From a virus: a stretch of 32,076 nucleotides of DNA. Positions 24,247-32,076 of this stretch are shown in pieces (position 1 is the first letter of the stretch; each line of letters starts with the position of its first letter). The stretch spans positions 1-32,076 of the IMG/VR virus record IMGVR_UViG_3300025141_000451; one strand, written 5' to 3'. The notes under the pieces were generated by a model. It was given only the letters and a program-made list of their open reading frames with translations. It searched no databases and was not told the DNA's origin. A program made the translations under genes and the position numbers.

Positions 24247-24341
24247 TTTTATTTCCTGTTGTTATGTTAAGATGTTCTACCAATCTTAGTTTAAGTATAA
24301 CAGGTTCGATCAAAATGTATAAGTTATTTTAAATAAAAATG

Positions 24342-24370
24342 AAATGTAAAAGAAATGTAAATAAATGTAA
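24342..24370 (+). repeat. Three phased AAATGTAA direct repeats
   Basis: AAATGTAA occurs at 24342-24349, 24353-24360 and 24363-24370, spaced 11 and 10 bases, that is one per helical turn on the same face of DNA. A related AAATGTAT sits at 24313-24320. The same octamer recurs in phased pairs in the other two non-coding regions. Iteron-type binding sites for a replication or regulatory protein are the likely reading. Confidence 0.65.
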
Positions 24371-24437
24371 TCATTGAATACAAATACTATTTACAAAGTA
24401 TAGTTACTACTGAGGGGAGGAGGAGAGAGAGAGCTAT

Positions 24438-24473
24438 AACCGGTAGAACGGCGCCAGCCAGTTCGTTACGGTT
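24438..24473. other. GC-rich imperfect hairpin in an AT desert
   Basis: Arms AACCG/CGGTT (24438-24442 and 24469-24473), GAAC/GTTC (24446-24449 and 24461-24464) and GGC/GCC (24450-24452 and 24457-24459) nest into one hairpin with a short apical loop GCCA. It is flanked by a purine tract on one side and a long AT-rich block on the other. It could be a cruciform or single-strand initiation element of an origin, or a terminator, since TTTATTAT follows. The function is inference. Confidence 0.45.
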
Positions 24474-24715
24474 TATTATCTATAGTATTATTATTTATTA
24501 TTATTATAGATCTATAGATTAAATCTATTATAGTTACTCTTAATCTATTTCTATTATTATAATCTTCTATTTATTTAAAAAGATTATTATAAATCTTCTA
24601 TTTACAGAGTATTATTTAACTGTTCTACTAATCAACAACTTACATGAATACAGAAATAAGAGGAATAGTTTATGAATACATTTACATTACATTACATTAA
24701 ATAAAACATAATAGG

Positions 24716-24743
24716 TTTATCTTTATAAGAGAAGGGTTATACT
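24716..24743 (+). promoter_or_regulatory. Promoter candidate for the nuclease transcript
   Basis: TTTATC (24716-24721), a 16-base spacer, then TATACT (24738-24743). This matches the second promoter type seen at 28583-28611 and 29833-29860. The expected start, about 24750, coincides with the first base of the 16-bp stem, so the mRNA would begin as a hairpin. The -35 box is weak against a housekeeping consensus. Confidence 0.38.
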
Positions 24744-24750
24744 TATTGAT

Positions 24751-24827
24751 GAGGAGGGGATGTTGTTTTTTATTATTCTTCTTGTTGTTGAAAGAGTATG
24801 TTCTGCCATTTACAACATCTCCTCCTC
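24751..24827 (+). promoter_or_regulatory. 16-bp hairpin at the 5' end of the nuclease leader, hides a ribosome site
   Basis: GAGGAGGGGATGTTGT (24751-24766) pairs with ACAACATCTCCTCCTC (24812-24827): 15 Watson-Crick pairs plus one G-U, with a 45-base loop. The 5' arm contains a perfect AGGAGG and an ATG (24760). In RNA the stem would hide both. This is a very stable structure in otherwise AT-rich sequence. Confidence 0.7.
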
Positions 24828-24852
24828 TCTTTGTCACCTAAGCTTCGATTAA
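24760..24852 (+). CDS. Possible 30-aa hydrophobic leader peptide
   Basis: From ATG 24760 the frame reads MLFFIILLVVERVCSAIYN... for 30 codons to TAA at 24850-24852. AGGAGG is only 2 bases upstream, closer than usual, and lies in the hairpin stem. The N-terminus is strongly hydrophobic, like small membrane peptides or type I toxins. An overlapping frame from ATG 24749 (MRRGCCFLLFFLLL..., stop at 24841) is equally hydrophobic because the DNA is T-rich, so hydrophobicity is weak evidence. What makes it noteworthy is that its stop directly abuts the element able to pair with the nuclease ribosome site. Confidence 0.3.
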   Translation: MLFFIILLVVERVCSAIYNISSSLCHLSFD

Positions 24853-24973
24853 TCTCCGATACAAAACTTTTAGTCAATAGCTTAACCTCTCCTCAGTAAA
24901 ATGGGGGGAGGCTTCTCTCCAAAATAAGTTAGATAATACACTTCGATCAGTATAGTTATTACTGTATCGGAGA
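24853..24973 (+). promoter_or_regulatory. Long-range pairing that can hide the nuclease ribosome site
   Basis: TCTCCGATACA (24853-24863) is the exact complement of TGTATCGGAGA (24963-24973), which contains the GGAGA ribosome site of the nuclease gene (ATG 24979). Between them lies another hairpin, CCTCTCC/GGGGAGG (24886-24892 and 24905-24911). If both arms are on one RNA, the nuclease would be shut off until something opens this 11-bp helix. The regulatory role is inference. Confidence 0.5.
24949..24964. repeat. 16-bp dyad AGTATAGTTATTACTG (second copy of 24397-24412)
   Basis: AGTATAGTTA(T/C)TACTG is present at 24397-24412 and 24949-24964, 15 of 16 bases identical. The second copy has perfect CAGTA/TACTG arms, 7 bases apart. 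The pair brackets the non-coding region, one beside the presumed origin and one just before the nuclease start. Candidate operator or binding site of a dimeric protein. Confidence 0.45.
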
Positions 24974-24978
24974 CATTG

Positions 24979-26189: not shown

Positions 26190-26258
26190 AATCATCCATG
26201 CGTGAGATCGCTTACCTTCCCAGGAGCTACGGCTATACGCGTCTGATTTCGATTTTTC
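26186..26258 (+). terminator. Long-stem structure, likely terminator after the nuclease cluster
   Basis: TTGAAATCA (26186-26194) pairs with TGATTTCGA (26244-26252), 9 bp with one G-U, and inside it GCGT/ACGC (26200-26203 and 26237-26240). A T-rich run, TTTTTCTTTTT, follows immediately. It starts in the stop codon of the previous gene, as terminators in compact genomes often do. The stem encloses a larger loop than usual, so it might instead be a small structured RNA. Confidence 0.45.
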
Positions 26259-26284
26259 TTTTTCCAAAAAGTTGAGGAGAAAAA

Positions 26285-26320
26285 ATGATTTTTACAATGG
26301 AAAGTTGTAAAAAAATGTAA
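26285..26320 (+). CDS. 11-codon mini-ORF with strong ribosome site, leader candidate
   Basis: GAGGAG lies 5 bases before an ATG that opens MIFTMESCKKM and stops at 26320. The frame contains a 9-bp stem, TTTTTACAA/TTGTAAAAA (26289-26297 and 26305-26313), with loop TGGAAAG. Its stop lies in the first AAATGTAA element of the region. It may be a leader peptide for the gene at 26473, or the ribosome site may be coincidental. Low confidence. Confidence 0.25.
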   Translation: MIFTMESCKKM

Positions 26321-26435
26321 TAAAATAAATAATCATTTATTTAAAAAAGTTTTGTATAAATGAAGGTTATTTAGTATTATTAATCATCAAAACTTATTAC
26401 TATTTTAATAATAAATAGGTTATTGATAAAACAAA

Positions 26436-26454
26436 AAATGTAATAAAAATGTAA
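26436..26454 (+). repeat. Two phased AAATGTAA repeats before the 206-aa gene
   Basis: AAATGTAA at 26436-26443 and 26447-26454, 11 bases apart, with another single copy at 26313-26320. Same octamer and spacing as at 24342-24370. They sit 19 bases before ATG 26473, where a bound protein could repress it, as when a gene product controls its own promoter. Confidence 0.5.
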
Positions 26455-26472
26455 AAAAATGGAGATAAAAAA

Positions 26473-27136: not shown

Positions 27137-27353
27137 CTACTTCTAAAACTATACTCATCACCCTTCAGGATAACTTGCTTAACATTTTCTTTTAGATAAG
27201 AAAAATGAAAAAGAAATGTAAAAAGATGTAATCCTTTTGTAAATCCTTTTAAATCCTTATCATCCTTTCCTTCCTTATTTTCCTTTGACCTTTGTTTCCT
27301 TTGGTCGATGTGTAATCGCGTCGCAAGCGTTTGACGAGTTTTGAAGCGACTTT

Positions 27354-27383
27354 TGTATAAGCCGGTTGATTGGCTATTTACAA
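27354..27383 (-). promoter_or_regulatory. Leftward promoter candidate (TTGTAA-N18-TATACA)
   Basis: On the minus strand TTGTAA (27383-27378), an 18-base spacer and TATACA (27359-27354). The -35 and the first half of the spacer (TTTGTAAATAGCCAAT) are identical to the promoter at 27503 facing the other way. RNA from here would run to the hairpin at 27136-27118, about 230 bases, with no good ORF. Confidence 0.35.
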
Positions 27384-27517
27384 ATGTATTACGAGTTTTT
27401 ACATCATTTTTACAAGTGGCCTCCTCTAAAATGTTGAATGGCTTTCTAAAGATTTACAAAAAAACCTGCCATAAAAGGCGACCTTTCTTTTTGTTTTATC
27501 TTTTGTAAATAGCCAAT
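27369..27517. repeat. 16-bp inverted repeat carrying two divergent promoter starts
   Basis: ATTGGCTATTTACAAA (27369-27384) is the perfect reverse complement of TTTGTAAATAGCCAAT (27502-27517); allowing one mismatch the arms extend to 20 bp. Both arms contain TTGTAA plus ATAGCCAAT, so each carries the -35 and part of the spacer of an outward-facing promoter. A second 10-bp repeat, ACCTGCCATA (27464-27473) and TATGGCAGGT (27566-27575), overlaps the right side. Confidence 0.6.
27474..27497 (+). terminator. Short hairpin with T-rich tail
   Basis: AAAGG-CGA-CCTTT (27474-27486) is followed by CTTTTTGTTTTATCTTTTG. The 5-bp stem is short but the T-rich tail is long. It could end plus-strand RNA that starts in the 27331-27361 area (TTGACG-N19-TATAAG) and insulate the promoter at 27503. 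Confidence 0.4.
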
Positions 27518-27531
27518 AAACATTGTAGAAT
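27503..27531 (+). promoter_or_regulatory. Rightward promoter candidate (TTGTAA-N17-TAGAAT)
   Basis: TTGTAA (27503-27508), 17-base spacer, TAGAAT (27526-27531). This is the right arm of the inverted repeat. Downstream short frames (for example an 18-codon basic one from 27567) lack properly spaced ribosome sites, so the product may be RNA. Confidence 0.45.
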
Positions 27532-27631
27532 AGTAATAGGCTTTTAAATGGCCAGCTAATGGGAGTATGGCAGGTCAAATCATCATCACAAAAAGAAAAA
27601 AGAAAGGATACGAAAAAGTGTAGTATTTTGT

Positions 27632-27660
27632 TTGTAAATCATCATTTTATGAGTTATAAT
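27632..27660 (+). promoter_or_regulatory. Strong promoter of a likely small RNA (TTGTAA-N17-TATAAT)
   Basis: TTGTAA (27632-27637), 17-base spacer, perfect TATAAT (27655-27660). The same -35 and spacing recur at 28526-28531/28503-28508 on the minus strand. Expected RNA start about 27667. Confidence 0.6.
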
Positions 27661-27666
27661 AGCATT

Positions 27667-27857
27667 AACAAGCGAGTTTAAAAGCAGGCCGGGGTGGGGC
27701 CCCAGGTTCAAGCGTCCAAAGCGAGTAGATCTGCTCGTTGAAATGCACCCCTTCAGAAAAGCGAAAACGAGATAAAGCGAAAACGAGAGAAAGAAAACTG
27801 GGAGTGAGCAACCATTGAGAAAAATACTCACCCCCAGAAAAAGGGCTAATCCCTTTT
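27667..27857 (+). ncRNA. Candidate small structured RNA, about 190 nt
   Basis: Between a strong promoter and a hairpin terminator (27839-27857) lies no credible ORF, but much structure: a palindrome TGGGGCCCCA (27695-27704), a near-palindrome CGAGTAGATCTGCTCG (27722-27737), a possible long-range GGGGTG/CACCCC pairing (27691-27696 and 27746-27751), two copies of AAAGCGAAAACGAGA, and an 11-bp stem with one mismatch, CTGGGAGTGAG/CTCACCCCCAG (27798-27808 and 27827-27837). Its first part is GC-richer than the flanks. No known RNA family recognised. Function unknown. Confidence 0.5.
27839..27857. terminator. Shared two-way terminator
   Basis: AAAAGGG (27839-27845), loop CTAAT, CCCTTTT (27851-27857). 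Its right edge overlaps the stop codon of the minus-strand gene (27858-27856), so it ends that gene from the right (TTTT/C after the stem on that strand) and the candidate small RNA from the left. Confidence 0.65.
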
Positions 27858-28452
27858 AAAAGATGTCTGCAGATACTACCCTGGCCCAACAATCACGGTA
27901 ATCATTAACATCCCGATCTTGAACTTGAATCCATGTCTGCATAAAGTTTTTGATTTCAACTTTCAGATCTGCATTCATTCTCCACTCACAACATTCCCAA
28001 CAACCTATGTCTAGTGGTGGGGTTTTGAAGTAATAGCAGCCATCTTTTTTGTAATGAAACTGAACCAATCGATTGTTCCGGGCCAAAATACCGGAAACAC
28101 TTCGGCTAGCCCATGTGATTACAGCATGACCATAGATCTTCTTCTTCTTTTTCTTAGGAATAATGGGTTTTAAATCTGTTTCAAACTCAAGCTTTCTGCG
28201 ATGACAAGCTATCCAATGCATTCTATTTCCGACTGTTCGCTTATCCCGTAACTTGTATTCAACCTGCCAACCAGGGAAAAACATGGCATCCTCTGACCAC
28301 CAGATCCGATACATTCTTATCAGATTTGAAGCATAATCAGGCTTTTCAACATGATAGTATTTACCCTTCTTGACGATTTGTTCATCATTCCATCGGGTTT
28401 CGTTATTCGTTCCATCACTCCAAAAAATGTCTGCTATTTTTATGTATGACAT
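27856..28452 (-). CDS. Minus-strand gene of unknown function, 198 aa
   Basis: A 198-aa protein rich in Trp, Tyr and Lys (MSYIKIADIFWSDGTNNETRW..., with a KKKKKK run near residue 100 and CWECCEWRMNADLKVEI near 150). The aromatic- and basic-rich composition suggests nucleic-acid or protein binding, but no family is recognised. AAGGAGAA is well placed before ATG 28452, and a TTGTAA-N17-TATAAT promoter stands at 28531-28503. It is the only sizeable minus-strand gene and is transcribed away from the methyltransferase cluster, as regulatory or early genes often are. Confidence 0.65.
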   Translation of the reverse strand: MSYIKIADIFWSDGTNNETRWNDEQIVKKGKYYHVEKPDYASNLIRMYRIWWSEDAMFFPGWQVEYKLRDKRTVGNRMHWIACHRRKLEFETDLKPIIPKKKKKKIYGHAVITWASRSVSGILARNNRLVQFHYKKDGCYYFKTPPLDIGCWECCEWRMNADLKVEIKNFMQTWIQVQDRDVNDYRDCWARVVSADIF

Positions 28453-28502: not shown

Positions 28503-28531
28503 ATTATACACAGCTGTAGCAGCATTTACAA
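28503..28531 (-). promoter_or_regulatory. Promoter of the 198-aa minus-strand gene
   Basis: On the minus strand TTGTAA (28531-28526), 17-base spacer, perfect TATAAT (28508-28503). Expected RNA start is about 28496, giving a 43-base leader to ATG 28452. Identical boxes and spacing to the promoter at 27632-27660 on the other strand. Confidence 0.65.
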
Positions 28532-29892: not shown

Positions 29893-30216
29893 ATGTCTAG
29901 AAATAAAGGTGGTATGGTGTATGAGAAACCTCCATACTGGAAGGGTAGTAGATACCCAGATAAGTTTTTTGAAGGTCGCGTCTTAGACAAAACCTTCAAT
30001 CTTTATAACTCAGCTCTTAAAGAGCATTATGAAGCGAAAGTTGTGTTAGTTGATGATAAGCTTCCACGGGTTAGGCTTTACATTCCCCACTTTGACCAAC
30101 AAGCTTGGTGCAAATGGGCGGATGGTAGGTATAACCAGATCCCAATGGCGGGTAGATGGAAGATGCAAACAGTAAAAGGCACCCCAAGGGCGTGCGACTG
30201 GAGGATAAGATTATGA
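29893..30216 (+). CDS. Small protein, function unknown
   Basis: A 107-aa basic, aromatic-rich protein (VYEKPPYWKGSRYPDKFFEG ... FDQQAWCKWADGRYNQIPMAGRW). No family recognised. The ribosome site GGGAG precedes ATG 29893. Its stop overlaps the start of the sigma-like gene (ATGA), so it is made together with it. Possibly a DNA- or RNA-polymerase-associated factor given that coupling, but this is speculative. Confidence 0.55.
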   Translation: MSRNKGGMVYEKPPYWKGSRYPDKFFEGRVLDKTFNLYNSALKEHYEAKVVLVDDKLPRVRLYIPHFDQQAWCKWADGRYNQIPMAGRWKMQTVKGTPRACDWRIRL

Positions 30217-30578
30217 ACATGTATCACAAACATGCTTGGTGGGTTGGTTTAAAAGATGAAGATGATAAGATCTGGTATCGCTACCATAAATCATACAAGC
30301 AAACTACAATCGATTGGATTATTGACCAAAATGAGTGTTGTTATCAGACACATTCATGGGATGACGAGGATGCTGGAGAAGACATTGAACAGCCTGACCC
30401 TATGGAAATACTGGGGCCCTTATTAAAACACATCTCAGAGTTGGATCAGAACATCCTAATGCTACGATACGGACATAACTTAAAGTGGCGTGAAATAGGC
30501 GATAAGTTAGGTTACAACATTAGTTACTTATGGAAGCGTGAAAAGCGAGCAATGAAACTACTTAGAAGCTTGTTATGA
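30213..30578 (+). CDS. Sigma-70 region-4-like transcription factor
   Basis: A 121-aa protein. The C-terminal 55 residues (ISELDQNILMLRYGHNLKWREIGDKLGYNISYLWKREKRAMKLLRSL) match sigma-70 region 4: 'L-x-x-L-R-Y ... E-I-x-x-x-L-G ... V/L ... R-A-x-x-x-L-R'. That helix-turn-helix in sigma factors contacts the -35 box. The first half is unlike region 2, so it is not a complete sigma factor; it may combine with another protein or act on host polymerase as an appropriator. ATG 30213 after GGAGGA is chosen over an in-frame upstream ATG at 30156. Its stop overlaps the next gene (ATGA). Confidence 0.7.
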   Translation: MNMYHKHAWWVGLKDEDDKIWYRYHKSYKQTTIDWIIDQNECCYQTHSWDDEDAGEDIEQPDPMEILGPLLKHISELDQNILMLRYGHNLKWREIGDKLGYNISYLWKREKRAMKLLRSLL

Positions 30579-30914: not shown

Positions 30915-31199
30915 ATGAGCACTCAAGATCAAAAACTAAAGAAGAAAGCTGAGCACGCTCTGCGTTCCAGAAACTACAAGACACGGCTAAAGAAGGCTGT
31001 AGAAGGTGGTGACTTTGAGCAGATCGTGAAAAGCATTATGCTATTAGCAGTCAAGCACAACGATGATACAGATTGGAAAGCCTCACCTAGAACCTTTATG
31101 GAACTACTACAGGTGATGCACAAGTATAAGGTTGAGTTTGGAACTGCAGATGGTGATTTCGACGAAATACTCAGGGTGATAGATGGCGGCCAGGATTAG
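30915..31199 (+). CDS. Possible terminase small subunit
   Basis: A 94-aa, mainly helical, charged protein (MSTQDQKLKKKAEHALRSRNYK...) directly before terL and overlapping it by 17 bases, the normal place of the DNA-recognising small terminase subunit. It has no recognisable helix-turn-helix and is shorter than most, so the call is from position only. ATG 30915 follows a perfect AGGAGGT 6 bases upstream; an in-frame ATG at 30867 is less likely because it overlaps the preceding gene and lacks a ribosome site. Confidence 0.45.
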   Translation: MSTQDQKLKKKAEHALRSRNYKTRLKKAVEGGDFEQIVKSIMLLAVKHNDDTDWKASPRTFMELLQVMHKYKVEFGTADGDFDEILRVIDGGQD

Positions 31200-32076
31200 G
31201 AAGGTTCCTCAGGAGCTATTAAACGCTTTTGAGAACCCAAGAAACTTTTTCAAGTTTTTAAAAGTATTCGATAAAGAAAATAACAAACTGGTTCCTTTTG
31301 TTTTAAGGGACGAGCAAGAGGAGCTATTAGATGCATTACTCACGCAAAACCGTATTATCGTTCTTAAAGCACGCCAACTTGGATGCTCAACTCTTATCAG
31401 AGCTTACTTCCTCTGGCAACAATACATGTCAGGAGAGCCAACAAGCCACGCCATTATTAGTTATACCAGAGACAGTGCCGACCATCTCCACCAAATGGAC
31501 AAAGAGTTCTATCTCTCATTGCCAAAACCATTGCAAAGGAAGCTTAGCAAATCGTCCGCAAGAACCCTCCAGTTTGGAGATACTAAATCGACACTTAGAT
31601 CCTTTACCGCAAGTGGGAAGGCCGGAGCCACGCGAAGCTTTACTTTTTCATCTAGCCACATCTCTGAGTTTGCTTTCTTTGACGATCAAAGTGATTTGCT
31701 TGCCAATGTTGTCTCTTCAGTAGGGGAAGGACAGATTATTATAGAAACAACGCCAAATACACCAGGTGATAAATACCACCAACTTATTATGGGAGCACCA
31801 GAGAATGGTTGGCACCTTTGTTTCTTTCCTTGGCATCAACATAAAATCTACACTAAAAAATCTCAGTTCCATCAGCCTCAGGTTCCTAATCCCACTTCAG
31901 AAGAACAGGCTTTAAAGGAACAGTTTGGTTTAACATTAGGCCAGCTTTACTGGCGTAGATCCCAGATTAATACATTAGGTGTAGAAAAGTTTAGACGCGA
32001 GTTTCCCGCTACAGTCGATGAAGCCTTCTTTGCATCCTCTAACAACTTCTTTCCGATGGACATCTTAGATCGTTTA
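31183..32076 (+). CDS. terL: Terminase large subunit, N-terminal part (continues at position 1)
   Basis: The open frame from ATG 31183 runs to the end of the window and continues in frame at the start (after the 212-base repeat), giving a 514-aa packaging motor. The N-terminal ATPase shows LKARQLGCSTL (Walker A, about residues 61-71), then FTFSSSHISEF (Walker B with the Glu at 162), and IIIETTPN (coupling motif, about 185-192). It is an ATP-driven DNA translocase of the headful type, by family. It overlaps the upstream gene by 17 bases and has no clear ribosome site, so it depends on translational coupling. Confidence 0.92.
   Translation, partial: MAARIRKVPQELLNAFENPRNFFKFLKVFDKENNKLVPFVLRDEQEELLDALLTQNRIIVLKARQLGCSTLIRAYFLWQQYMSGEPTSHAIISYTRDSADHLHQMDKEFYLSLPKPLQRKLSKSSARTLQFGDTKSTLRSFTASGKAGATRSFTFSSSHISEFAFFDDQSDLLANVVSSVGEGQIIIETTPNTPGDKYHQLIMGAPENGWHLCFFPWHQHKIYTKKSQFHQPQVPNPTSEEQALKEQFGLTLGQLYWRRSQINTLGVEKFRREFPATVDEAFFASSNNFFPMDILDRL
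31865..32076. repeat. Terminal direct repeat, right copy
   Basis: Matches positions 1-212 except for C at 31950 (T at 86). See the left copy: this is the overlap expected when a circular or permuted genome is reported as a line. Confidence 0.9.

Follow-up and report, generated by a model that had tools for sequence, protein, structure and literature searches.

Comparison of a 32,076-bp virus record, the whole stretch of DNA analysed here (the window), with contigs of uncultured phages indicates that it carries a real, conserved, non-coding and previously unrecognised element. We infer that this element acts as a linear, cis-acting, non-coding 5' leader of the rightward packaging/structural operon, and put the probability of this reading at about 0.42. 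The initial annotation had described a likely small RNA gene with no protein, in which a promoter and a terminator framed a unit that fitted exactly. That delimitation was wrong, since the conserved unit consists of about 27691-27768 plus the promoter ahead of it, and the tail is variable (Table 1).

The two ends of the record (positions 1-212 and 31865-32076) lie within the large-terminase gene and share an overlap of 212 bp at 99.5%, so that the window is probably a complete, circularly closed and circularly permuted genome. Its portal and adaptor are of the SU10 type, and its large terminase was recognised as T4 gp17-like. Searches of cultured phages found no relatives of the portal or of the nearby DNA and no carrier of the element, and the best cultured match to the large terminase was 30%. 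No recognisable replication, integration or polymerase genes were found among the scanned proteins of the window, and most early proteins had no family. Two more AT-rich non-coding stretches of the window (24313-24976 and 26190-26472) contain repeated AAATGTAA units.

Table 1. Features of the element and of the opposing gene, in coordinates of the window
Feature	Position	Strand	Basis or remark
Promoter TTGTAA-N17-TATAAT	27632-27660	+	-35 inside the phage motif TTTGTAAAT (27631-27639)
Transcript start and variable leader	27661-27690	+	Sequence; 100% identity to L004
G-rich run and GC palindrome (GGGGTGGGGCCCCA), core motif 1	27691-27704	+	Relatives compared
Spacer, nearly constant in length and variable in sequence	27705-27742	+	Relatives compared
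ATGCACCCC box and A-run, core motif 2	27743-27757	+	Consensus GAAATGCRCACCC-R-AAAAAA
Duplicated AAAGCGAAAACGAGA	27758-27789	+	Private to the window phage; missing in L004
11-bp stem with 18-nt loop, then TTTTCTTTCT on the - strand	27798-27837	-	Probable terminator of the - strand gene
AAAAGGG-N5-CCCTTTT hairpin	27839-27857	-	Probable terminator, mainly of the - strand gene
198-aa gene, function unassigned	27856-28452	-	Absent from L004, where its promoter remains
Promoter of the - strand gene	28503-28531	-	Same TTTGTAAAT...TATAAT type

Anatomy and distribution of the element

The order of the parts in the family, from 5' to 3', is a TTGTAA-N17/18-TATAAT promoter, an interval of 34-86 nt, a G-rich run with GGG(G/T)CCC at its end, a spacer, ATGCRCACCC and A-runs. 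The consensus promoter named in the initial annotation was present, is identical in the near relative L004 and is kept before the element in relatives; a match of at least 10/12 lay 34-86 nt upstream of the palindrome in 14 of the 15 testable relatives, L075 being the sole testable member that has the core without a good promoter. Generic promoter-like matches were not enriched in the region (8, versus 7.9 in shuffles). Judged from the -10, transcription would start at about 27667.

The 10-bp palindrome reported earlier, TGGGGCCCCA, was confirmed at 27695-27704, and nearly all relatives have a palindrome of the GGG(G/T)CCC type (GGTCCC in L086). From the palindrome centre to ATGCRC the distance is 42-43.5 nt in most members. 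A scan that permitted gaps of 36-42 nt returned 8 contigs with one match length throughout, two of the 8 being unrelated sequences. The downstream A-runs comprise 5-8 A and are ~17 nt apart, with C-rich boxes between them (TGCACCC, TACTCCC, TACTCGAGTA and TACCCGGGTA). The duplication of AAAGCGAAAACGAGA, also noticed earlier, was found with copies at 27758 and 27774, and an exact scan for it gave no matches.

Viral contigs were searched for members with sequence patterns and with a portal profile, and 16-17 distinct variants were found in contigs of uncultured phages (the window, L004, L119, L141, L070, L076, L075, L008, L010/L011, L048/L074, L084 and L090, and further L136, L095, L104, L086/L123, L111/L117 and L016). 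The full-length element occurred exactly once per record in 11 of the 22 records searched. A sequence-only model was trained on 17 relatives that included neither the window nor its close kin L004. Its only strong match in the 32-kb genome was 27691-27768 on the + strand (E 2.9e-6), and it also matched L004 (4.5e-7) and L075 (3.9e-7), the latter lying outside the training set. A second, weak match in the window (E 0.37) fell on the + strand at 27822-27847, which bears a second ATACTCACCCCC-A-run box. A second model, run on about twenty unrelated loci as controls, matched none of them. Two other scans were set aside, as the one for GCGAGTAGATCTGCTCGT returned L004 plus chance matches, and the one of genome contigs for the promoter plus GTAGGGGCCC returned, as judged by eye, chance matches only.

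Relatives with only ~62% portal identity show the same promoter and motifs in a non-coding stretch at the corresponding position, and identity among the portal proteins of the carrier group extends down to about 47%. The element is not universal in this group, since contigs such as L101 and L102 lack it and have a strong promoter ahead of their terminase genes. In these two contigs (L101 1527 and L102 541) the consensus promoter is followed, upstream of the terminase genes, by a GCCGTAAGA-TGTCAG-TCTTACGGC hairpin, which is perhaps a different leader.

The window and L004 differ very little from ~27166 to 27757, a region that covers the entire promoter and the first bases of the predicted transcript, and the tail is rewritten; the protein of the upstream neighbour is only 90% identical. 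The ~490 non-coding bases before the element (27166-27660), ~99% identical to L004, hold five of the eight exact TTTGTAAAT motifs of the genome, some as inverted pairs (GGCTATTTACAAA / TTTGTAAATAGCC), and are probably a second regulatory region.

Reading frames, folding and the 3' hairpins

The initial annotation saw no credible open reading frame here, and this holds across the family, where reading frames are not common to the relatives. It is highly improbable that the conserved AUG (27743) opens the gene of a tiny lysine-rich peptide. No AUG precedes it in the transcript of the window, and in L004 the frame runs for 28 codons, the window and L004 differing by a 30-nt in-frame indel and three synonymous changes. 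However, the frame has 10 codons in the window and 6-33 elsewhere, no Shine-Dalgarno sequence precedes it, lysine is the only residue shared, and the start codon itself is missing in L136, L016 and L086.

Rfam 15 returned 0 matches at the gathering threshold, in agreement with the earlier remark that no known RNA family is matched, and relaxed thresholds gave only chance-level miRNA and lncRNA matches (E 1.7 or worse). Folding of 27661-27861 was not exceptional (z -1.26; 21 of 200 shuffles folded as well), and consensus folding of the family produced no pairs. The folding z averaged +0.18 over 18 members on each of the two strands, short of what would be expected of a structured small RNA. A hand-drawn GUC/GAC hairpin differed among members, could not be aligned column for column and was dropped.

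Two hairpins at the 3' end had been described, one as an 11-bp stem with an 18-nt loop and the other as a terminator shared with the minus-strand gene. The stem (arms 27798-27808 and 27827-27837) exists, but it is complete on the - strand only (11/11 pairs), an A-C mismatch leaving 10/11 pairs on the + strand. As for the terminator, the hairpin has just three G-C pairs (AAAAGGG-CUAAU-CCCUUUU) and a terminator scan found none on the + strand, which leaves this assignment unsupported. The hairpin probably serves mainly the - strand gene; on the + strand it is weak, and in relatives it is broken or missing. Both hairpins lose one + strand pair in L004 through an A-C mismatch and keep G-U pairs on the - strand, as can be read off directly, and neither is present in L119. 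Because these G-U pairs are kept and a U-rich stretch follows the hairpins on the - strand, they are better read as terminators of that strand, and would probably end the opposing 198-aa gene.

In L076, a homologue of the 198-aa gene runs the other way from the copy in the window. The gene behaves like a mobile cassette, being opposed to the element in the window (27856-28452) and in L119 (97-810) and forward in L076 (1047-1640); in L004 (2238-2309) it has been deleted and its promoter left behind.

Thus, of the small RNA gene there stands an element that is conserved, non-coding, headed by a promoter and found in no RNA library, and what falls away is a conserved fold or terminator. For this reason, and because most relatives run into the terminase operon within 100-200 nt, the framing as a small RNA gene is unsupported; a plausible RNA would be the packaging operon's 5' leader. 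We consider a free-standing, trans-acting small RNA, which would pair with mRNAs through the C-rich boxes (CACCC, CUCCC), to be unlikely. Such an RNA would be consistent with the strong conserved promoter, with the A-rich unstructured tail that exposes the C-rich boxes, and with the presence of an opposing gene on the downstream side in both the window and L119, but the terminator is not conserved and the operon begins directly behind the element in most relatives. In addition, complementarity to the phage's own translation starts showed no excess (mean -17.8 versus -17.4 kcal/mol for shuffles).

Location before the packaging operon

In relatives, a + strand operon opens with its first gene ~100-200 nt downstream of the element; this is a ~106-aa or sigma-region-4-like gene (the window's homologue of the latter is PF04545), followed by a 94-aa protein, the large terminase and the portal. 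By position only, the 94-aa protein is presumed to be the small terminase. A fold search with it gave no informative match, and its predicted structure contains helices only (pLDDT 72), without a clear N-terminal HTH. The gene of this presumed small terminase starts ~85 nt after the palindrome in L111. In the window it occupies 30915-31199, with the sigma-region-4-like gene at 30156-30578. It is ~3 kb from the element there, antisense gene included; the stretch from the element to the terminase genes holds the opposing 198-aa gene and two genes for methyltransferases. Gene insertions were seen downstream of the element and almost never between the promoter and the element, and this retained linkage is the main reason for which we prefer a transcribed leader over a plain DNA site.

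The strongest rival, which we regard as doubtful, is a pac- or cos-like site for the initiation of DNA packaging, where the terminase would bind the ATGCRC/A-tract boxes and cut near the GC palindrome, transcription being incidental. It owes this rank to its spacing, which resembles that of lambda cos; the palindrome is ~43 bp from the box array, close to the arrangement in which cosN is followed at ~bp 48 by the TerS-binding R3, and in which TerS bound at R3, ~40 bp from cosN, positions the nicks (PMC4669245). A DNA-binding site would equally well have a rigid 43-nt offset and a GC palindrome. A packaging site would also agree with the presence of one element per record beside the terminase genes, with the absence of an RNA fold, and with near-complete contigs that often start at most 2 kb upstream. 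Against this, the element stays with the promoter and not with the terminase genes, and the genome closes elsewhere, in the overlap within the large-terminase gene. Many contigs continue through the element and none begins in the palindrome, although contigs are not virion ends. The clustering of contig starts had suggested a physical genome end at the element, a candidate that was rejected; one contig lacks several kb of the early region beside the break, so that its break was traced to this missing region and not to a terminus, and assembly breaks explain the starts equally well.

The type of terminase also argues against a packaging site. The large terminase is T4-like and the presumed small terminase was modelled as helical without a clear N-terminal HTH, and T4-type small terminases have no canonical HTH and do not recognise a unique pac site (PMC9611059). 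The element resembles lambda cos (cosN-cosB) in having a GC-rich symmetric site with repeated boxes ~40 bp further on, beside terminase genes. Unlike cos, it is almost always coupled to a promoter, goes with a T4-like large terminase, contains no known R or IHF sequences and, as judged from contigs and not from virion ends, gives no sign of genome ends. The pac of P22 is a 22-bp sequence within the TerS gene (PMC9611059). With the pac sites of SPP1 and P22 the element shares a single-copy location near the small-terminase gene and circularly permuted genomes, recognition being putative here, and it differs from them in being intergenic and promoter-linked.

A transcription-primed (R-loop) replication origin, in which the G-rich transcript would stay hybridised downstream of the promoter and prime replication, appears very unlikely. 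The promoter, G cluster and A-rich stretch do occur in this order and in single copy, in a genome without a recognisable replication gene. However, the absence of replication genes is weak evidence where most proteins are of no known kind, the A-rich stretch is short, and no link to replication was found.

A proposed leader signal without a fold

If the element is a cis-acting leader, RNA polymerase would start at the TTGTAA/TATAAT promoter and transcribe it. A phage or host factor would then read a linear bipartite signal, made up of the G-rich palindrome, the ~43-nt offset and the ATGCRCACCC boxes on their A-run spacing, probably by binding the nascent transcript. As in an antitermination-type leader, the bound signal would adjust elongation in, or expression of, the long operon that follows, with its sigma-region-4-like gene, presumed small terminase, large terminase, portal and capsid. 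In the window, two methyltransferase genes and the opposing 198-aa gene would have come to separate the element from the terminase genes, and the hairpins at 27798-27857 would serve the opposing gene as terminators.

The nearest mechanistic idea is a leader like the put RNA of HK022, which is ~70 nt long and binds the beta' zinc-binding domain through two defined stem-loops (PMC9378689). Like put, the element would be a non-coding part of a 5' leader just behind the promoter of a phage operon, with cis action on elongation proposed for it. Conserved stem-loops and a consensus fold are, however, absent from the element, and because put is folded and the element is not, we do not file it as put. 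The lambda 6S RNA / pR' late leader is an untranslated leader of ~190 nt ahead of the late genes. The element would be similar as a ~190-nt untranslated leader before late genes, but its sequence is unrelated and its terminator is not conserved. Counting against the leader reading, no known leader mechanism was matched, no put-like fold was seen and no terminator to be overcome was identified; the core of L075 without a good promoter, and the ~3 kb with an antisense gene before the presumed small-terminase gene of the window, count against it as well. More speculatively, and with considerable doubt, the element could represent a new class of fold-free linear leader RNA, in which a bipartite motif with a fixed offset (GGGGCCC, ~43 nt, AUGCRCACCC boxes spaced by A-runs) recruits a factor to RNA polymerase where the packaging operon begins.

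The motif allows the operons of these phages, for which no cultured member was found, to be located precisely. Should the element prove to be a packaging site, this terminase group would gain its first recognition sequence. If it works on transcription and needs no fold, the leader signals of phages would extend beyond structured RNAs such as put.
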